DNA from: Variovorax sp.
GTDB taxonomy: Bacteria; Pseudomonadota; Gammaproteobacteria; Burkholderiales; Burkholderiaceae_C
Direction: 5' to 3'
Assembly (NCBI GenBank): GCA_004210915.1
Contig: SEGS01000002.1
Coordinates: 1 to 64,000 of the forward strand
Length of the DNA: 64,000 bases
A program made the position numbers and the translations under genes. Of this stretch, positions 1,985 to 41,416 are shown piece after piece. The notes under the pieces are model-generated. The model was not told the DNA's origin and searched no databases. It saw nothing but the letters and a program-made list of their open reading frames with translations. How positions within the stretch are numbered: position 1 is the first letter of the stretch; each line of letters starts with the position of its first letter.

Positions 1985-2449
1985 ATGACTGAAACATCCA
2001 CCGACCGCGCTTCGTGCGCGCACCCTCCCTTGCGGGATCCCACAACGGCGCCTGCTTTCACCCCCGCGGCGCGACGCGCGCTGGTTCGCGCTTACAAGGA
2101 AACGCGGCCGCCCGCCGGTGTCTTCGTGATCCGCAACCTGGTCAATGGCCGCATCTACGTGGGCGGCAGCCTCAACCTGGAGGGTGCGATGAACCGTCAT
2201 CGCTTCGAGCTGAACATGCGCTCCCACGGCAACAAGCTGCTGCTGAAAGACTGGCTCGAACACGGCGCCGAGCGCTTCAGCTTCGAGGTGGTCGACCACA
2301 TCAAGGAACGCGACGATCCGCACTTTGACTACGAGGCGGAGCTGCAGAACCTGCTGCCGCTGTGGCGCGATGAGCTCCAGGGCCAGGGCCAAGACGGCTA
2401 CAACCCGCCCGGACACGGCGCAGTTGAATCGCGGCGAGCGCGGACCTGA
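1985..2449 (+). CDS. GIY-YIG nuclease family protein
   Basis: The protein has 154 residues with one compact GIY-YIG-like domain. The two signature strands read GVFVIRN (about residues 45-51) and IYVGGS (about 57-62), so the canonical GIY and YIG triplets appear as GVF and YVG. They are followed by an Arg-containing helix (NRHRFEL), the stretch HGNKLLLKDWLEHGAERFSF and a Glu-rich helix (DYEAELQNLL) that could supply the metal-binding Glu. No second DNA-binding domain is visible, unlike UvrC or homing endonucleases. The ATG at 1985 sits directly at the predicted transcription start. The substrate is unknown, and a stand-alone domain regulated by a strong palindrome pair suggests a stress or DNA-metabolism role only by inference. 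Confidence 0.8.
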   Translation: MTETSTDRASCAHPPLRDPTTAPAFTPAARRALVRAYKETRPPAGVFVIRNLVNGRIYVGGSLNLEGAMNRHRFELNMRSHGNKLLLKDWLEHGAERFSFEVVDHIKERDDPHFDYEAELQNLLPLWRDELQGQGQDGYNPPGHGAVESRRART

Positions 2450-2530
2450 GAGCCCATCCGCTTCGCTTTCCGGGTAGATACTCAGCTCGCCTCGCGACAG
2501 GGGCGCATCGACAGCCCCATTTCCAACCAC

Positions 2531-3106
2531 ATGTCTACACCCCTCCCATCTTCCTCCGCTGCAACCTTCACGGCGTTCGTGGATTTCGAGCGCATCGCCT
2601 CAGGCACCCGCGCCGAAGTCGTCGCCGAGCTGCGTCGCCGCGCCGACGTCTCACCGGTCTTCGTTTTCGACGACGCCACCGGCGAGGCGCTCGATCTCGA
2701 CCTTCGCAGCGGATCGCCAGAAGGCGCGGGCGACCACGGCGCGGAAGCGCTGCCGGCGCGCACGGTCGGCCGCCCGAAACTTGGCGTGGTCGCGCGGGAG
2801 GTCACGTTGCTACCGCGCCATTGGGACTGGCTCAACCACCAGCCGGGCGGCGCCTCCGTCGCGTTGCGCAAGCTGGTTGAAGAAGCGCGCCGCGTGCATG
2901 CCGGGCGGGACGTTGTACGCGCGTCGCGCGAAAGCACCTACCGGTTCATGAGTGCCATGGCCGGTCAGCTGCCTGGCTTCGAAGAAGCCTCTCGCGCTCT
3001 CTTTGCGGGGGAACGCGAGCGCTTCGATGCGCTCATCGCGCCCTGGCCGCAGGACGTGCGCGTGCACCTCGGCACGCTGTCCGCCGCAGCCTGGAGCGCC
3101 GAATGA
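2531..3106 (+). CDS. DUF2239 family protein
   Basis: This 191-residue soluble protein matches the DUF2239 family. The most conserved block is RPKLGVVAREVTLLPRHWDW, followed by LNHQPGGASVALRKLVEEAR (about residues 80-120). The N-terminal part (TFTAFVDFERIASG) is also typical. The family has no assigned function; the conserved block resembles a short DNA-binding or regulatory helix, but this is conjecture. The last codons overlap the MATE gene by four bases (ATGA), so the two are probably translationally coupled. Confidence 0.85.
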   Translation: MSTPLPSSSAATFTAFVDFERIASGTRAEVVAELRRRADVSPVFVFDDATGEALDLDLRSGSPEGAGDHGAEALPARTVGRPKLGVVAREVTLLPRHWDWLNHQPGGASVALRKLVEEARRVHAGRDVVRASRESTYRFMSAMAGQLPGFEEASRALFAGERERFDALIAPWPQDVRVHLGTLSAAAWSAE

Positions 3107-4479
3107 GCGCCGCTCTCCCGCTGGCGCCACAGGCGACCGAACGCGCGTTGTGGAAGACCTTCCTGTTCTTCCTCGCGCCGATGATGTTGAGCAACATCCT
3201 GCAGTCGCTGTCGGGCACGCTCAACAACATCTTCCTCGGGCAGATGATCGGCGTCGGTGCACTGGCTGCGGTGTCGAGCTTCTTCCCGGTGATGTTCTTC
3301 TTCATCGCCTTCACGATCGGCCTGGGTGCCGGTGCGTCGGTGCTGATCGGGCAGGCCTGGGGCGCGCGCGAGATCGACAAGGTCAAGGCCATCGCAGGCA
3401 CCACGCTGTCGGTCGGCATGCTGCTGGGCTTATTGGTCGCGCTGTTCGGCGGCACGTTCGCGTCGCCGATGTTGACCGCGCTGGGCACGCCGCCCGACAT
3501 CCTGGCCGACGCCACGCGCTATGCCCGCGTCATGCTGTTCGCGATGCCGGGGCTCTTTCTGTTCCTGCTGTCGACCGCGATGCTGCGCGGCGTGGGCGAT
3601 ACCGTCTCGCCGCTGCTGGCGCTGGTGATGTCGACCGCCGTTGGCCTGGTGCTCACCCCTGCGTTGATTCGCGGCTGGGGCGGCCTGCCGCAGATGGGCG
3701 TGACCAGCGGTGCGTGGGCGGGCGTGGTGGCCTTCGTGGTCGCGACGCTGTGGCTCGCCTGGCGCCTGCGGGTGCGCGGCAGCCCGCTGGCGCCCGACGG
3801 CGCGCTGTGGAGGCACATGCGCATCCAGCCCGCGTTGCTGAAAAAAGTGCTGACCATCGGGGTGCCGACCGGCGTGCAGATGATCATGATCGCGCTCGCC
3901 GAAATCGTGCTGCTCTCGATGGTCAATGGCTACGGCTCGGGCGCCACGGCAGCCTATGGCGCTGTCAACCAGGTGGTGGCGTACGTCCAGTTTCCGGCCA
4001 TCTCGATCGCCATCACCGCGTCGATCCTCGGCGCCCAGGCCATCGGCGGCGGTCGCGCCGACAAGCTCGGGGCCATTGCGCGCACTGCGCTCCTCATGAA
4101 CCTGGTGCTGACCGGCGGCCTTGTCCTGATCGGCTACCTGTTCTCGCGGCACCTGATGGGCTTCTTCATCACCAGCGCGCCGGTGCTCGAGGTCGCGCAG
4201 ACCCTGCTGCACATCATGCTGTGGAGCATCGTGATCTTCGGCATGGCGTCCGCGCTGTCGGGGATCATGCGCGCCAGTGGCTCGGTGCTGGTGCCGACCG
4301 CCATCTCGATCTTCTGCGTGGTCTGCGTCGGCGTGAGCGTGGGCTGGTTCATGAGCCAGCGCATCGGGCTCAACGGCATCTGGATGGCCTACCCGGCTTC
4401 GTTCACATCGATGCTGGTGCTGCAGACGCTGTATTACCGGCTGGTGTGGCGGAAGAAGGCGATTCAGCGGCTGGTTTGA
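3103..4479 (+). CDS. MATE family efflux transporter
   Basis: This inner-membrane protein of 458 residues has the usual length and 12 hydrophobic segments of the MATE family, in two six-helix halves. The N-terminal half carries LAPMMLSNILQSLSGTLNNI and the second half begins near LKKVLTIGVPTGVQMIMIAL. Family members export cationic drugs and metabolites in exchange for Na+ or H+; the substrate here is not predictable. The start ATG at 3103 overlaps the DUF2239 stop. No regulator gene lies beside it. Confidence 0.92.
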   Translation: MSAALPLAPQATERALWKTFLFFLAPMMLSNILQSLSGTLNNIFLGQMIGVGALAAVSSFFPVMFFFIAFTIGLGAGASVLIGQAWGAREIDKVKAIAGTTLSVGMLLGLLVALFGGTFASPMLTALGTPPDILADATRYARVMLFAMPGLFLFLLSTAMLRGVGDTVSPLLALVMSTAVGLVLTPALIRGWGGLPQMGVTSGAWAGVVAFVVATLWLAWRLRVRGSPLAPDGALWRHMRIQPALLKKVLTIGVPTGVQMIMIALAEIVLLSMVNGYGSGATAAYGAVNQVVAYVQFPAISIAITASILGAQAIGGGRADKLGAIARTALLMNLVLTGGLVLIGYLFSRHLMGFFITSAPVLEVAQTLLHIMLWSIVIFGMASALSGIMRASGSVLVPTAISIFCVVCVGVSVGWFMSQRIGLNGIWMAYPASFTSMLVLQTLYYRLVWRKKAIQRLV

Positions 4480-7177: not shown

Positions 7178-8293
7178 ATGACCCGATTGCGGCTGCTCTG
7201 CAGCGCCTGCCTGTTTGCCTTCAGCGTCGCGGGCGCTGCCCACGCCCAGATCCTGATCGGGCAAACCGCCGGCATCACCGGTCCGGTGGCGTCCAGCGTC
7301 AACGAGACGATCGCCGGGGCGCAGCTGGTGATCGACGCGGCCAACGCACAGGGCGGCGTCAACGGCGAGTTGATCGAGGTCGTGCGCCTGGACGACGGCT
7401 TCGACGTCACGCGGGCCGGTGAAAACGCCCGGGTGTTGATCGAGGACAAGAAGGTCGTCTCGCTGTTCCTCACGCGCGGCACGCCGCACGCGCAGGCGAT
7501 CATTCCCTGGCTCGACAAGCACGGCGTGGCGCTGATCGCGCCTTCGACCGGGGCGATGGTGCTGCACAAACCCGTGCAAAAGCATGTGTTCAACGTGCGG
7601 TCGAGCTACCAGCGCGAGTCAGAGAAGGCGGTACAGCACCTGACCACGGTGGGCATGGAGCGCATCGCGGTCGTGCACGTGACGGATTCCTTCGGTGCCG
7701 ATGCGCTCGAGGGCGCGATGACCGGTTTCAAGAAGTCCGGCAAGCAGCCCGCCGCGCTGGTGCCGGCGGACCGCGCCAAACCCGACTACGCGGCGATCGT
7801 GCCGAAGATCGTGGCGGCGAACGCGCAGGCGGTGATCTGGATCGGTTCGGGCAGCGCCGTCGTCGACGGCATCAAGGCGCTGCGCGCCGCGGGGTCGGCC
7901 GCGCAGGTGGTCACGCTCTCCAACAATGCCTCGTCAGGCTTCATCAAGCAGTTGGGCAGCCAGAGCGCAGGCGTCATCGTGACGCAGGTGTTTCCGTACG
8001 AGCGCGCCTATGGCAACGGAATGATCCGCGAAGCACTGGCGCTGGCCAAGGCCAAGGGCCAGGCCGAGCTGTCACCTGCGCTGCTCGAAGGCTATGCCGC
8101 CGGCAAGGTGTTGGTCGAGGCGCTGCGCCGCGCAGGGCCCAAGCCGACCCGGGCCAAGGTGCTCGCGACGCTGGACAACCTGCGCGGCTACGACATGGGC
8201 GGCGGGATGGAAGTCAGCTACTCGCCGCAGGACCATTCGGGCATCGACTTCGCGGACCTGTCGATCATCAGCGACGGCCGCTTCAAGCGCTGA
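7178..8293 (+). CDS. Liv-type ABC transporter substrate-binding protein (orphan)
   Basis: This periplasmic binding protein of 371 residues belongs to the branched-chain amino acid type (Peripla_BP_6). A signal peptide ends at about residue 23 (GAAHA/QILIG). The mature start ILIGQTAGITGPVASSVNET and the lobe-hinge pattern fit the family. No permease or ATPase genes are nearby, so it may serve a transporter elsewhere or act as a sensor partner. It converges with the MFS gene at 8375 across a structured 81-base gap. The ligand could be an amino acid, an amide or a carboxylate; the sequence does not say. Confidence 0.88.
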   Translation: MTRLRLLCSACLFAFSVAGAAHAQILIGQTAGITGPVASSVNETIAGAQLVIDAANAQGGVNGELIEVVRLDDGFDVTRAGENARVLIEDKKVVSLFLTRGTPHAQAIIPWLDKHGVALIAPSTGAMVLHKPVQKHVFNVRSSYQRESEKAVQHLTTVGMERIAVVHVTDSFGADALEGAMTGFKKSGKQPAALVPADRAKPDYAAIVPKIVAANAQAVIWIGSGSAVVDGIKALRAAGSAAQVVTLSNNASSGFIKQLGSQSAGVIVTQVFPYERAYGNGMIREALALAKAKGQAELSPALLEGYAAGKVLVEALRRAGPKPTRAKVLATLDNLRGYDMGGGMEVSYSPQDHSGIDFADLSIISDGRFKR

Positions 8294-11671: not shown

Positions 11672-12313
11672 TCAGGCCGGGCAGGCGCCGCTGGTGAGCC
11701 CCGGTGGCGTCCCGATGCTGCGCGCAACGGCATCGGCCAGGCGCGAGGTCACGCGCTGCGCGCTGCGGGCGAGCGCGTCGATGCCGGGCGCGGCCGCGGG
11801 CTCGGACAGCGTCAGCTGACAGGCGCGGGTGGGCTGGTCGTTGCCGGGGCGCAGCGTCCAGCTGAAGGCTGCGTCGACGCGGCTGCCCTCGATGGCGTCA
11901 AACTGCCGCAACTGGACCGCGATTCGCACGCCGGGCTGGCCGGCGGGCCGACCTGAGCGGGTGGCATCGACCGCGCCGAGCCGCATGGCCACGCCGCTGG
12001 CGAGTGCGTCGCGCAATTCGCTTTCGAACGAGGACGACCAGCGGTGCTGTTCGAGGATGTCGACGGCCGGGCCTTCGTTGGCGCCCTTCTGCCGCACCAC
12101 GAGCTGCGGCCGGGCGAAGCGCTCGGGCATCGCCACCGGCGCCAGATCGATGTAGAAGGCGGCCGCGCCGGAGGTCGCCGCAGGCGCCGTGACCGCCGCG
12201 GCATCTGCCAGGCTGTAGTACTGCGGTGCCGTGCCGGCGCAACCCCCAAGCGCCAGCAACGCGAAGGCACAGGCCACGGTGCGGCGGCTGGCAGCCAATG
12301 TCATGAAGCTCAT
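11672..12313 (-). CDS. pqiC: PqiC-type outer-membrane lipoprotein (ABC_trans_aux)
   Basis: The 213-residue protein has a lipobox LALGGC, with the lipidated Cys at residue 25, and the family opening APQYYSLADA. It matches the PqiC/ABC-type transport auxiliary lipoprotein family. In E. coli, PqiC is an outer-membrane lipoprotein that works with the PqiB needle and the PqiA membrane protein in lipid traffic across the envelope. The start ATG at 12313 overlaps the pqiB stop (ATGA), so translation is coupled. Confidence 0.85.
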   Translation of the reverse strand: MSFMTLAASRRTVACAFALLALGGCAGTAPQYYSLADAAAVTAPAATSGAAAFYIDLAPVAMPERFARPQLVVRQKGANEGPAVDILEQHRWSSSFESELRDALASGVAMRLGAVDATRSGRPAGQPGVRIAVQLRQFDAIEGSRVDAAFSWTLRPGNDQPTRACQLTLSEPAAAPGIDALARSAQRVTSRLADAVARSIGTPPGLTSGACPA

Positions 12314-13797
12314 TTTTTCTTGTCCTCGGGCTTGCCCAGCAGCAACGACTGCGGATGCCGTTCCAGGTAGTCGGTCAGGATGCGCAGCGAGCCCGCGGCG
12401 CGCGTGACTTCCTGCAGCGTCTGGCGCAGGTCCTGTTGCAGCGGTGCGTCCTCGGCGATGGTCTTTTCGGCCGCGCTCAGCGTCTTGCGAACGTCCTTCA
12501 TCGCCGCCGTCATTTCGGGCGTCAGGTCGTTGTTGATGCTTTTTGCCACCTGCTCGGCGCTCTTCAGCGTGGTGTTCAGGGTGGCCAGTGCCTTGCGCAG
12601 ATCGGCGCCGATCTCCTCGAACGGCACTTTGTTCACCTTGTTCACGATCTCGCCCACCTGCTCCTGCAGCGCATCGAGGCTGTTCGGCGTGGTCGGCATC
12701 AGCAGCGGACTTTGCGTGATGTCGATCTTCGCGGCCGCGGCCTTGGGGAAGAAATCGAGCGCGACGTAGACCTGCCCGGTCAGCAGGTTCCCGGTGCGCA
12801 GCTGCGCGCGCAGGCCCTTGCCCACGAGGAAACGCAGCCGCTCGAGTTCTGTGTAGCGTGATTCGCGCGCCACGTTGTCGGCGCCGCGGCGCATGCGATC
12901 GGGGTAGATCTGCACCAGCACCGGCATCTTGAATTCGCGCTCTTCGCGGTCGAACTCGATGCCGATGGACTTGACCTCGCCGATCACCACGCCGCGGAAA
13001 TCGACCGCCGCGCCGGGCGACAGGCCGCGCAGCGACTGATCGAAGTACATCAGCATGGTCTGTGCCGGCCCGTCGCGCGGGCGCATCGCGCTGCTCTCGT
13101 CTTCGGCCAGCACGAAGGCTGCGTTTTCCGGCGCGATCGGTCCCATGTCGTCGTCGGTCGGCGGCTGGAAAGCGATGCCGCCCAGCAGGATGGTGGCCAG
13201 CGATTGCGTGCGCACCTTGATGCCGCTGGCGCTCAGTTCGGCGTCCACGCCGCTGGCCTGCCAGAAGCGCGTGTTCGCGCCGACGAACTTGTCGTAGGGC
13301 GTGTTCACGAACACGCGCAAGGTCACGCCGCGCCCGTCCGGGTCCAGCTCGTAGGCCGCGAGCTGGCCGACCTTGATGCGGCGGAAGTAGATCGGCGACC
13401 CGATGTCCAGCGACCCGATGTCCTTGGCCTTGAGCGTGAACTGCCGGCCCGATGCATCGCGCGTCACGATCGGCGGTGTTTCGAGGCCGGTGAATTCGCC
13501 CGCGGTCTCTTCCGCGGTGCCGGGATCGGCGCCGATGTAGGCGCCCGACAGTAAGGTGCCCAAGCCGGAGATACCGGAGGTGTCCAGCCGCGGGCGCACC
13601 ACCCAGAAGCGGGTGTCGAAAAGAATGCGCGCGATCAGCGCCACACCCACCAGCGCAGCCACCACGGGAATCAGCCAGATGAGCGATGGCAGCCAGTTGC
13701 GCTGCCGGGCGACCACGGGCTCGGCCGGGCCCGTGGGCGGCCCGGCATCGGGCGCGGGCGCGCGCGGGGCCTCCGGCGCTGTGCGTTTGTCATTCAT
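12310..13797 (-). CDS. pqiB: PqiB-like MCE protein with shortened first MCE domain
   Basis: This is an inner-membrane anchored MCE-family protein thought to form a hexameric tube between the membranes for lipid transport. It has 495 residues, against 546 in E. coli PqiB. A membrane helix (about 36-60) runs straight into DTRFWVVRPRLDTSGISGLG, which in E. coli PqiB is the end of the first MCE domain. The roughly 58 residues normally in between are absent. MCE domain 2 starts near FTLKAKDIGSLDIGSPIYFR and domain 3 near YFDQSLRGLSPGAAVDFRG. The C-terminal helical needle (SLDALQEQVGEIVNKVNKVP onward) is intact. The frame is open, so this is an in-frame loss, a lineage trait or a sequencing artefact. 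Confidence 0.88.
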   Translation of the reverse strand: MNDKRTAPEAPRAPAPDAGPPTGPAEPVVARQRNWLPSLIWLIPVVAALVGVALIARILFDTRFWVVRPRLDTSGISGLGTLLSGAYIGADPGTAEETAGEFTGLETPPIVTRDASGRQFTLKAKDIGSLDIGSPIYFRRIKVGQLAAYELDPDGRGVTLRVFVNTPYDKFVGANTRFWQASGVDAELSASGIKVRTQSLATILLGGIAFQPPTDDDMGPIAPENAAFVLAEDESSAMRPRDGPAQTMLMYFDQSLRGLSPGAAVDFRGVVIGEVKSIGIEFDREEREFKMPVLVQIYPDRMRRGADNVARESRYTELERLRFLVGKGLRAQLRTGNLLTGQVYVALDFFPKAAAAKIDITQSPLLMPTTPNSLDALQEQVGEIVNKVNKVPFEEIGADLRKALATLNTTLKSAEQVAKSINNDLTPEMTAAMKDVRKTLSAAEKTIAEDAPLQQDLRQTLQEVTRAAGSLRILTDYLERHPQSLLLGKPEDKKK

Positions 13798-13806
13798 AAC
13801 GAATTG

Positions 13807-14472
13807 TCACTTCGATTCTTGAGTCTTCAGTTCGAGGGGTGCAGCGCCGGCCGGCGCAACGGTGTCGCGGCCGGTGTCCCAGGTCAGGCGCGGATCGAAG
13901 CTGAGCGATGCCAGCATCGTCAGCACCACCACCGCGCCAAAGGCGGCGATGCCGACGCCGGCCGTGATCTCGGCAAAGCCCTGGATGCGCACCAGTCCGG
14001 CCAGCAGCGAGACCACGAACACGTCGAGCATCGACCAGCGGCCGATCACTTCGAGGATGCGGTAGAGCTTGGCCCGCTCCAGCTGCCGCCATTCGCTCCG
14101 GCGCTGCGCCATCAGGTTCAGCAGGACCAGCGCTGCCAGCTTGAACAGCGGCACCAGAAAGCTGGCGATGAAGATGATGGCGGCCAGGCCATAGCTTCCC
14201 GACACCCAGAAAAAGATCACGCCGCTGAGGATGGTGTCGGTTTGCTGGCCGAAAAAGCTGCGCGTGACCATCACCGGCAACAGATTGGCCGGGATGTACA
14301 GAATGCAGGCCGCTGCCAGCAACGCCCAGGTGCGATTGATGCTGTCGGGCTTGCGGGTGTGCAACCGCGTGCCGCAGCGTCCGCAGCCCTCCCCGTCTGC
14401 AGCGTCCTGCCACACGGCACCGCAGTGGTGACAACCCTTGAGGCCAGAGGCCGCTGCGCTGTCGACGCTCAT
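13807..14472 (-). CDS. pqiA: PqiA-like membrane protein, second half
   Basis: The 221-residue protein matches one half of E. coli PqiA (two homologous halves in about 417 residues). A zinc-ribbon-like pair of Cys motifs (CHHCGAVW and CGRCGTRL) precedes about four membrane helices, with the conserved start LLAAACILYIPANLLPVM. It probably forms the inner-membrane gate of the PqiABC lipid transport system together with the upstream paralogue. The ATG at 14472 overlaps the stop of the upstream gene (ATGA). The gap to pqiB is nine bases. Confidence 0.87.
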   Translation of the reverse strand: MSVDSAAASGLKGCHHCGAVWQDAADGEGCGRCGTRLHTRKPDSINRTWALLAAACILYIPANLLPVMVTRSFFGQQTDTILSGVIFFWVSGSYGLAAIIFIASFLVPLFKLAALVLLNLMAQRRSEWRQLERAKLYRILEVIGRWSMLDVFVVSLLAGLVRIQGFAEITAGVGIAAFGAVVVLTMLASLSFDPRLTWDTGRDTVAPAGAAPLELKTQESK

Positions 14473-15095
14473 GCCCGGGCATCCTCCGGCCGCGGCTCGA
14501 AGGCCAGCTCCCAGAACGCGCGCGGGTTGAAGGACAACACCGCTGTCAGCAGCACCGTGAGCCCGATGAACGCCCACAGCGCGGCGCCCGGAATCACCGT
14601 CGCCATGCTGCCCAGCTTGACCAGCGCGACCAGCACGCCGAGCAGGAACACCTCGACCATGCCCCAGGGGCGGAGCATCTGCAGGACGTTGACCAGCGTG
14701 CTAAACCCGGCGGGCCGGCGGGCGTGGGCCAATGGGACGAGCAGATAGAAGAGGATGCACAGTTGAAGCAGCGGAAACAGCAAGGTGGTGGCGAGCACCA
14801 GCAATGCGACCACCGACATGCCCTCGTTGGCCAACACCACCACGGCGCCCACCAGCGTCGTCCGGCTGCTCAGGCCTTGGAGCTGGATCTCGACGATCGG
14901 AAACAGGTTGGCGATGGCGAAAAGAATCAGGCTTGCCACGGTCAGCGGAAGGATGCGTGCGCTCTGGTCGCCGGCATGGCGGTCGAGCTCGGTACCGCAG
15001 CGCTGGCAGCGCGACACCTCACGCGGCTGCAATGGCACCCGACGGCAGATGGCGTCGCAACCTTCGCAAACGATGATGTCCGGTACTTCTTTCAT
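14469..15095 (-). CDS. pqiA: PqiA-like membrane protein, first half
   Basis: The 208-residue protein is paralogous to the next gene and matches the other half of a full-length PqiA. It opens MKEVPDIIVCEGCDAICRR, followed by a second Cys pair (CQRCGTEL), giving a four-Cys ribbon. About four membrane helices follow, with the typical LFAIANLFPIVEIQLQG start. The ATG at 15095 was preferred because the Cys motif then sits near the N-terminus; an in-frame ATG at 15137 would add 14 residues, and neither has a strong ribosome-binding site. It is the first gene of the pqi operon. Confidence 0.85.
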   Translation of the reverse strand: MKEVPDIIVCEGCDAICRRVPLQPREVSRCQRCGTELDRHAGDQSARILPLTVASLILFAIANLFPIVEIQLQGLSSRTTLVGAVVVLANEGMSVVALLVLATTLLFPLLQLCILFYLLVPLAHARRPAGFSTLVNVLQMLRPWGMVEVFLLGVLVALVKLGSMATVIPGAALWAFIGLTVLLTAVLSFNPRAFWELAFEPRPEDARA

Positions 15096-15290
15096 GGAGG
15101 CGCGCGGCCCTCGGTTCCATTTCGCTACTGAATCCATAGCGCGCCGCGCAGCGGCGGCGGGCGCCGCGGCGAATTCTGGCACAGAGGTCCGGCAGCGACA
15201 GCACGCGCAGCCGTGTCCGGCGTCCTGGTGCGGCTATTGGCGAGGTTGCGAGGCGGCCCGACCCCGTCCCGGTCGCCAGCCGCCAGGCCG

Positions 15291-38726: not shown

Positions 38727-39956
38727 TCAAGGGCGCTTCATCTGGCAGGTGGTGGGCGTGCTGGCGACGTACGGCTCGTAGTACTTCACGGGCGCCAGCG
38801 TGTAGCCGGTGTTCTCCGGGCTGTACGGGTACTTCGGCGTCGCCTTCTCCCAACGGGCGATCCACAGGCCTTGCTGCAACTGGTGGTCGGCTTTGCGCAT
38901 CTCGACGTCGCCGTTGAAGTTCTTGAACTTCATGCCTTCGAGCGCCGCGGCCACTTTCACCGGGTCGGTCGACTTCGTCTTGACGAACGCTTCGCTCAGC
39001 ATGTTGTAGACGGTGTATACGGCGGTGGTGTACAGGTCGTCGTTGAACTTCGATTTGAACTGGCTCATCAACGGCTTGACCGGGCCTTCGGCGTTGTAGT
39101 GGCTGTAGCCGACCTGGTACACGCGACCGTCGGAAGCCGCGCCCATGGCCGTCGGGGTGCCGCTCGTCACCGCGTAGTAGGTGTAGTACTTGACGTTCAG
39201 GCCGGCGTCGTTGCCTGCCTTGATGAGCAGCGCCAGGTCGGAGCCCCAGTTGCCGGTGATCACGGTGTCGGCACCCGACGCCTTGATCTTGGCGATGTAC
39301 GGTGCGAAGTCGCGAACCTGTGCAAGTGGATGCAGATCGTCGCCGACGATCTGCACGTCAGGCCGCTTGGTCTTGAGGTTGTCCTTGGCGAACTTCGAGA
39401 CCTGCTGGCCGTGCGAGTAGTTCTGGTTGATGAGGTAGACCTTCTTGATATCGGCCTGCTCCTTCATGAAGGCCGTGAGGGCTTCCATCTTCATCGACGT
39501 GTCGGCGTCCACCCGGAAGTGCCAGTAGCTGCACTTGCTGTTGGTCAGATCAGGGTCGACCGCCGCGTAATTGATGAACAGCACTTCCTTGCCGGGGTTG
39601 CGGGCATTGTGCTTTTCGAGGGCATCCATGATCGCCAGCGCCGGGCCAGAGCCGTTGCCCTGAACCACATAGCGCACGCCCTGGTCCATGGCCGAGCGCA
39701 GTGCGCTGGTGGTTTCCTGCGGGCTGAGCTTGTTGTCGATGCCGATGATCTCGAACTTCACGCCGGCAGCGTTCTTCTTGTTGAACTCTTCGGCGAGGAA
39801 CTGGAAGGTTTTGAGCTGGTTGGTGCCCACCGAGGCCATCAAACCCGACAGCGGGTCGAGCCAGGCGATCTTGACGGTTTCACCCTTTTGAGCCAGCGCG
39901 CCGGTGGCGGCTGCGGCGAGGATGGCGGCGGTTGCGAACTTCAATGTGAATTTCAA
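38727..39956 (-). CDS. Liv-type substrate-binding protein, copy proximal to livH
   Basis: The 409-residue periplasmic protein has a signal peptide ending TGALAQ (about residue 23). Its mature part starts KGETVKIAWLDPLSGLMASV and ends with a Cys (TPTTCQMKRP). Another Cys in TNSKCSYWHFRVDAD could form a disulfide with it. It is a close paralogue of the next upstream gene. The start is a TTG at 39956; AGGAG lies seven bases before it, and the paralogue starts at the same residue with ATG, so TTG is well supported. The ligand is unknown, and neighbouring genes point to a carboxylic acid. Confidence 0.9.
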   Translation of the reverse strand: MKFTLKFATAAILAAAATGALAQKGETVKIAWLDPLSGLMASVGTNQLKTFQFLAEEFNKKNAAGVKFEIIGIDNKLSPQETTSALRSAMDQGVRYVVQGNGSGPALAIMDALEKHNARNPGKEVLFINYAAVDPDLTNSKCSYWHFRVDADTSMKMEALTAFMKEQADIKKVYLINQNYSHGQQVSKFAKDNLKTKRPDVQIVGDDLHPLAQVRDFAPYIAKIKASGADTVITGNWGSDLALLIKAGNDAGLNVKYYTYYAVTSGTPTAMGAASDGRVYQVGYSHYNAEGPVKPLMSQFKSKFNDDLYTTAVYTVYNMLSEAFVKTKSTDPVKVAAALEGMKFKNFNGDVEMRKADHQLQQGLWIARWEKATPKYPYSPENTGYTLAPVKYYEPYVASTPTTCQMKRP

Positions 39957-40101
39957 TCTGTGTCTCCTGGTCAGGGGGCTGTCAAAGCGGTTTGAGCGTA
40001 CAAGTGTTTGGGGTGCCTCCCCTCAGGGAATGCCCGTAAGCGCGCCGTTACGCAGCGGGTTTCTATCGCGCAGGCGACAGCCTCGATGCGCTGCGGCGCG
40101 G

Positions 40102-40135: not shown

Positions 40136-41371
40136 TCACGATGGCCGCTTCATCTGGCAGCTGGTCGGGGTGCTTGCGACGAACGGCTCGTAGTACTTGA
40201 CCGGGGCCATCGTGTAGCCCGTGTTCTCGCCGTCGTACGGGTACTTGGCACTCTTCTTTTCCCACTTCGAGATGTAGAGGCCCTGCTGCAGCTGGTGGTC
40301 GGTCTTGCGCATCTCGACCTCGCCGTTGAAGCTCTTGATCTTCATCCCCTCGAGCGCCGCAGCGACCTTCACCGGATCAGTGGACTTGGTCTTGGCGAAT
40401 GCGTTGTCCAACAAGGCGAACACGTGGTGGATCGAGGTCTGCACCATGTCGTCGTTCATCTTCTTCTTGTAGCCGTCGATGCTTTTCTGGATGTCGCCAC
40501 CCATGTTGTAGTGGCCATAGGCGACGGCGTACACCTTGCCGTCCGACTGCGCGCCCATCGCGGTCGGCGTGCCGGCCCCATAGGCGTAATAGGTCAGGAA
40601 CTTGACGTTGTTCAGGCCCGCGTCGTTCGCGGCCTTCACCAACAACGACAGGTCGGACCCCCAGTTGCCCGTGATCACCGTGTCGGCGCCCGATGCCTTG
40701 ATCTTCGCGATATACGGCGCGAAGTCACGCACCTGCGCCAGCGGATGCAGATCGTCACCGACAACCTGGATGTCCGGGCGCTTGGTCTTCAGGTTGTCCT
40801 TCGCGTACTTGGACACCTGCACGCCGTGGGCGTAGTTTTGCCCGAGGAGGTACACCTTCTTGATGTCGGGCTGATCCTTCATCCAGGTGGTCAGTGCTTC
40901 CATCTTCATCGAGGTGTCGGCGTCCACGCGGAAATGCCAGTAGCTGCACTTGCTGTTGGTGAGGTCGGGGTCGACCGCCGCATAGTTCATGAACAGCAAC
41001 TCCTTGCCCGGGTTGCGCGCGTTGTTCTTCTCGATGGCATCAATGATGGCCAGTGCCGGGCCGGAGCCGTTGCCCTGCATGACGTAGCGCGCGCCCTGGT
41101 CCTGTGCCGAGCGCAGCGCGCTGGTGGTTTCCTGCGGGCTCAACTTGTTGTCGATGCCGATGATCTCGAACTTCACGCCTGAGAGATTTTTCTTGTTGAA
41201 CTCCTCGGCCAGGTACTGCGTGGTCTTGAGCTGGTTGGTACCGACGGCCGCCATCAGGCCCGAGAGCGGGTCGAGCCAGGCGATCTTGACGGTCTCGCCT
41301 TTCTGGGCGAACGAAGCGGCCGCACCGGCCAGCATGGCGCCGGCCGCGATGGCTTTAAGGGTGAATTTCAT
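40136..41371 (-). CDS. Liv-type substrate-binding protein, copy next to the acyl-CoA ligase gene
   Basis: The 411-residue periplasmic protein has a signal peptide ending AASFAQ. The mature start KGETVKIAWLDPLSGLMAAV is almost identical to its neighbour's, and most blocks are shared (LTNSKCSYWHFRVDADTSMK, VITGNWGSDLSLLVKAANDA). The two copies differ mainly in the C-terminal lobe around residues 270-330, where ligand choice could differ. The ATG at 41371 follows GGAGACAAGACAAC. It is 45 bases after the ligase gene. Tandem duplication is the simplest origin. Confidence 0.92.
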   Translation of the reverse strand: MKFTLKAIAAGAMLAGAAASFAQKGETVKIAWLDPLSGLMAAVGTNQLKTTQYLAEEFNKKNLSGVKFEIIGIDNKLSPQETTSALRSAQDQGARYVMQGNGSGPALAIIDAIEKNNARNPGKELLFMNYAAVDPDLTNSKCSYWHFRVDADTSMKMEALTTWMKDQPDIKKVYLLGQNYAHGVQVSKYAKDNLKTKRPDIQVVGDDLHPLAQVRDFAPYIAKIKASGADTVITGNWGSDLSLLVKAANDAGLNNVKFLTYYAYGAGTPTAMGAQSDGKVYAVAYGHYNMGGDIQKSIDGYKKKMNDDMVQTSIHHVFALLDNAFAKTKSTDPVKVAAALEGMKIKSFNGEVEMRKTDHQLQQGLYISKWEKKSAKYPYDGENTGYTMAPVKYYEPFVASTPTSCQMKRPS

Positions 41372-41416
41372 GTTGTCTTGTCTCCGTTTTGTAATGAGAA
41401 AACCGCACCCGCCTCG

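Follow-up and report, generated by a model that had tools for sequence, protein, structure and literature searches.

A 183 bp in-frame deletion within the first MCE domain of PqiB in the assembled genome of a Variovorax sp.

In the assembled genome of a Variovorax sp. (GenBank assembly GCA_004210915.1) the pqiB gene lacks 61 codons, in frame, from the first MCE domain of the encoded protein. The rest of the gene is conserved and no readable relative carries a similar form. We consider a lineage-specific and rather recent deletion, which would eliminate ring 1 and probably leave Pqi transport impaired or abolished, to be the best explanation (probability about 0.6), and it is from the assembled sequence that we infer the reality of the deletion in the cells, its age and its effect. 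The gene represents a deletion allele of a known gene in a single genome, or an assembly error, and it is not a new kind of system.

The DNA analysed here, referred to as the window, is a stretch of 64,000 nucleotides (contig SEGS01000002.1, positions 1 to 64,000 of the forward strand) from a draft genome (4.16 Mb, 139 contigs) which is estimated to be 96% complete. An initial annotation of the window had identified the gene as pqiB, and this is borne out by alignment of its product, as PqiB, to 16 named relatives and by its location in a pqiABC operon, with neighbours matching PF04403 (twice) and PF03886 (Table 1). Ten relatives included in a comparison share the gene order pqiA-pqiA-pqiB-pqiC. 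Among the named relatives, those with the most similar PqiB proteins belong to Variovorax, the nearest PqiB being 80% identical, and a search of the genome with the pqiB open reading frame, which is open throughout, produced no further match besides itself. The protein scores 360.7 bits against the NCBIfam equivalog NF008070, under the cut-off of 525 bits, and this result is not telling because an intact relative also falls below the cut-off (445.8 bits).

Among characterised proteins, PqiB of Escherichia coli K-12 (a type III MCE protein, b0951, 5uvn) resembles the window protein in its membrane helix, MCE domains 2 and 3 and a conserved, putatively helical C-terminus, with 35% identity over 421 columns counted from D61, and in the gene order pqiA-pqiB-pqiC. 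The two proteins differ in the 61 codons of MCE domain 1 that the window gene lacks and in their total lengths, for which the initial annotation had already given 495 aa against 546 aa. Moreover, two pqiA genes are present in the window genome and, judging by sequence matches, in the relatives compared whereas E. coli carries one. Hexamers that form a stacked, lipid-carrying tube are a further characteristic of PqiB as a type III MCE protein.

Table 1. Features of the pqi operon and of the short PqiB protein in the window; residue numbers refer to the short protein.
Feature	Position	Strand	Basis and remarks
First PqiA gene (PF04403)	14469..15182	-	Pfam
Second PqiA gene (PF04403)	13807..14577	-	Pfam
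pqiB with in-frame 61-codon deletion, 495 aa	12310..13797	-	ORF list, Pfam, alignment
N-terminal membrane helix, residues about 36-60, kept	13618..13692	-	Alignment
Deletion junction F60/D61	13615..13620	-	Alignment, motif spacing
MCE domain 1 remnant, residues 61-109	13471..13617	-	Alignment, boundary by eye; still highly conserved
MCE domain 2, residues about 110-236	13090..13470	-	Pfam, alignment; boundary by eye
MCE domain 3, residues about 237-351	12745..13089	-	Pfam, alignment; boundary by eye
Putative C-terminal helical needle, residues about 352-495	12313..12744	-	Alignment; boundary by eye
pqiC, outer-membrane lipoprotein (PF03886)	11672..12313	-	4-base overlap with pqiB end

In the alignment with the 16 named relatives a single block is absent from the window PqiB, and it lies between F60, where the membrane helix ends, and D61, which begins the motif DTRFWVV. 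The spacing from the WLIP-type motif to the DTRFWVV-type motif is 16 residues in the window protein and 77 residues at all 49 readable loci among the 63 others examined (14 gave no match to the pattern, and some loci represent one genome fetched twice). Thus, 61 codons, or 183 bp, are absent and the reading frame is retained. The in-frame loss had been recognised earlier and stands, while its size, then put at about 58 residues, becomes 61 residues relative to the relatives and 59 relative to E. coli K-12 PqiB, as counted on the alignment. The junction is located at 13618|13617, and the bases GAC at 13617-13615 could belong to either flank. Since relatives carry GAC at the right-hand breakpoint and GAT, GAC, GAG or GAA at the left-hand one, the two breakpoints would, as judged from the relatives, have shared at most three bases.

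The missing segment belongs to MCE domain 1, as initially proposed. Pfam detects two MlaD stretches in the window PqiB compared with three in the intact relative L002, and the segment, at 61 residues, compares with the 81 positions of the Pfam MCE model (MlaD). In a second intact relative, L049, the segment comprises residues 43-103, and the alignment of this protein to E. coli PqiB (5uvn) begins at residue 44, one residue into the segment, and continues unbroken through MCE domain 1. Taken together, the Pfam counts and the 5uvn alignment indicate that the first 61 residues of MCE domain 1 are gone and that about the last 49, which include the GISGLGTLLSGAYIG stretch, are kept. The three tandem MCE domains by which PqiB-type proteins are defined in PMC5561183 are therefore not present in the window protein. 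The opposing reading, that the missing stretch is a variable linker outside any MCE domain, found no support and is refuted: across the genus the segment shares 65-100% identity with the query (a single remote additional copy has 36%), its alignment to the solved LetB and PqiB chains falls at the start of MCE domain 1, and its loss is accompanied by one fewer MlaD stretch. We regard the probability of a linker as negligible.

Outside this segment the protein looks normal, as had been claimed, with MCE domains 2 and 3 and the needle conserved in the alignment and the frame open. The sequence of the N-terminal membrane helix is also conserved, and a helix at residues 42-59, as well as helices in the needle, appear in a low-confidence AlphaFold model. 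Mean pLDDT values were 42.6 for the short protein and 44.4 for an intact control, both models being too weak for structural conclusions, and the values that they give for what is left of MCE domain 1, 21-28 for the short protein and 31-56 for the control, carry little weight.

The initial annotation had suggested a check against close relatives, and these carry the full segment. The 61-residue segment of a relative was present in 99 of 101 genomes of the genus and absent from the window genome and from one other, G106, where the match ends at position 8015 of a contig of 8025 bases; since that contig stops ten bases past the match, G106 says nothing about the segment. At the family level, a 111-residue query spanning the junction, which falls between its residues 35 and 36, yielded matches in 62 of 399 genomes, the window genome included. 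The earliest start of a main matching stretch in the other genomes was at residue 20 and, because matches could thus begin up to 16 residues before the junction, the segment itself was searched for separately. It was found in all 61 other genomes (four of them genus genomes already included in the set of 101), adjoining their matches to the junction query. Accordingly, no other genome of the genus or family sample that is readable across the junction showed the same short pqiB form. A control with E. coli gave a place covering at least 80% of pqiB in 5374 of 5426 genomes, a measure which is blind to a loss of this size. Among the literature matches listed, which leave many journals uncovered, none describes a natural deletion form of PqiB in its title or at the start of its abstract.

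Further pqiB-like sequences were encountered in Variovorax during these searches. The draft genome G029 carries a pqiB match, L017 (G029:C170), that contains a single internal TAG, and in addition a more distant copy at G029:C39:22231-23827 that is matched in separate pieces. Extra PqiB-like copies also occur in some other Variovorax genomes (G098:C216, G098:C110 and G119:C25:45798-46175), one of which is a partial match with a stop.

The presence of the segment in all 99 readable genus relatives also fits an assembly or consensus artefact, in which the pqiB gene of the organism is complete and 183 bp were passed over in the draft assembly, for instance when the path of a minor strain was chosen. 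The draft status of the assembly, with its 139 contigs, is in keeping with this, as is a conserved remnant within a gene whose remainder lacks relaxed selection (see below). Against it, the loss is exactly in frame, for which the chance is one in three, and the missing segment was not found elsewhere in the window genome, other contigs included. The DNA flanking the junction is nearly unique, with one other match in the genome, of 37 bases at 86%, and no direct repeat of at least 10 nt joins the breakpoints in the intact relative L049, where the one 10-nt repeat detected has its copies 141 apart and does not fit 183. No repeat therefore explains a jump by the assembler, and repeat-driven loss or misassembly was rejected on the same grounds.

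A broader comparison was made between 1.2 Mb of the relative G124 and about 0.95 Mb of the 4.16 Mb window genome, and it yielded 148 gene pairs, 34 of them within the window. The pqiB pair was the only one with a block of the size of 183 nt gone and both flanks adjoining; the other 147 showed no such loss, with 120 of the 148 matched near both ends. General decay of the genome was rejected as a cause, given that pqiB is the one loss of this size among the 148 pairs, which cover part of the genome. As to other differences, three pairs had gaps of 20-22 residues, three had frame-shifting differences (1, 2 and 11 nt) and one pair was about 720 nt longer in the window genome; a smaller count of 90 pairs also brought up a weakly similar gene (57%) with a gap of 37 residues and, on L077, a frame shift. 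The few small frame differences are a point in favour of an artefact, and those of 1, 2 and 11 nt could reflect faulty assembly, genuine pseudogenes or mistakes in the sequence of the relative. These results indicate that the assembly seldom drops large blocks, yet has small differences, and on balance we judge an artefact at pqiB to be somewhat unlikely.

Two loci noted during the comparison lie apart from pqiB. On L086 (G000:C16, G000 being the window genome), at about 2286-3488, two neighbouring gene pairs show frame-shifting differences of 2 and 11 nt relative to G124, possibly reflecting a pseudogene or a local assembly error, in the window genome or in G124. In the window, two adjoining genes on the minus strand (38727-39980 and 40136-41386) encode substrate-binding proteins of the branched-chain amino acid or urea type; they appear to be a tandem pair, their NCBIfam matches are under the cut-offs, and one G124 gene matches both.

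Selection on the remaining gene was estimated as dN/dS by the Nei-Gojobori method, comparing the window gene with nine intact genes and using seven intact pairs as a baseline. For MCE domains 2 and 3 and the needle the ratios were 0.19-0.42 for window against intact genes and 0.15-0.34 between intact pairs, the highest value for each region arising against L055, which was outside the intact pairs. The corresponding ranges were 0.08-0.18 and 0.02-0.19 for the MCE domain 1 remnant and 0.15-0.48 and 0.21-0.44 for the membrane helix stretch. The remnant carries 6-10 nonsynonymous differences from intact genes, compared with 1-2 in two of the closest intact pairs and 5-9 in the other five; one of these differences is at residue 92, which is P in the window protein and A in all 16 relatives. 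These nine genes and seven pairs gave no clear indication that selection was relaxed once the deletion had occurred. The deletion could be young relative to the branch, the short protein could still function, or the sequence could be in error, and dN/dS does not separate these.

The second of these options would correspond to a functional PqiB with two rings, in which lipids continue to pass through a shorter tube and the short form was retained in the lineage. The frame and operon are intact and dN/dS is low in MCE domains 2 and 3, the needle and the remnant, in keeping with such a protein. Precedents for other architectures also exist, since PMC5561183 reports that other numbers of MCE domains occur at lower frequency, in Proteobacteria, and PMC12436622 describes a Brucella MCE protein with a PqiB-like needle together with a PqiC-like lipoprotein. 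No readable relative has a two-ring form, however, about half an MCE domain is left behind and would need to be accommodated, and too little time may have passed for selection to be informative. A working two-ring protein seems unlikely. Its most specific version, in which a one-step loss of ring 1 left a remnant that serves as a collar between PqiA and ring 2, such that a single deletion changes the ring count of a lipid tube with function retained, we consider very unlikely.

For the wider family, the PqiABC channel is described in PMC10897342. The Brucella MpcD system, with its MCE-plus-needle protein, differs from the window system in working with an Mla-type ABC transporter, and is a distinct architecture as opposed to a shortened PqiB. 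LetB/YebT, a type IV protein, has MCE domains homologous to those of the window protein. LetB is not known to have a needle. LetB/YebT carries seven MCE domains (PMC5561183).

Under the preferred explanation, a probably recent deletion, a single in-frame event of 183 bp would have occurred on the branch of this Variovorax genome, excising the region that begins where the membrane helix ends and reaches midway into MCE domain 1, with the frame, both pqiA genes and pqiC untouched. The short PqiB is still expected to insert in the inner membrane, and it may form rings 2 and 3 and the needle. Since the remnant of ring 1 is hardly foldable as an MCE barrel, the tube should lose its membrane-proximal ring and would be joined to the membrane and to PqiA by about 50 residues without an MCE fold. 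Pqi transport is then expected to be impaired or lost, and the other MCE proteins of the genome may make this tolerable. Two other MCE genes exceed the Pfam cut-off (G000:C48:31187-31420 and G000:C24:3223-3429) and they are possible back-ups for a damaged PqiB.

If the deletion proves to be an artefact, it is a reason for caution with draft genomes, and if it is a null allele, it would add one more lost accessory transporter. If it is real and the short gene is expressed, it would constitute a natural test of the need of PqiB for its membrane-proximal ring.
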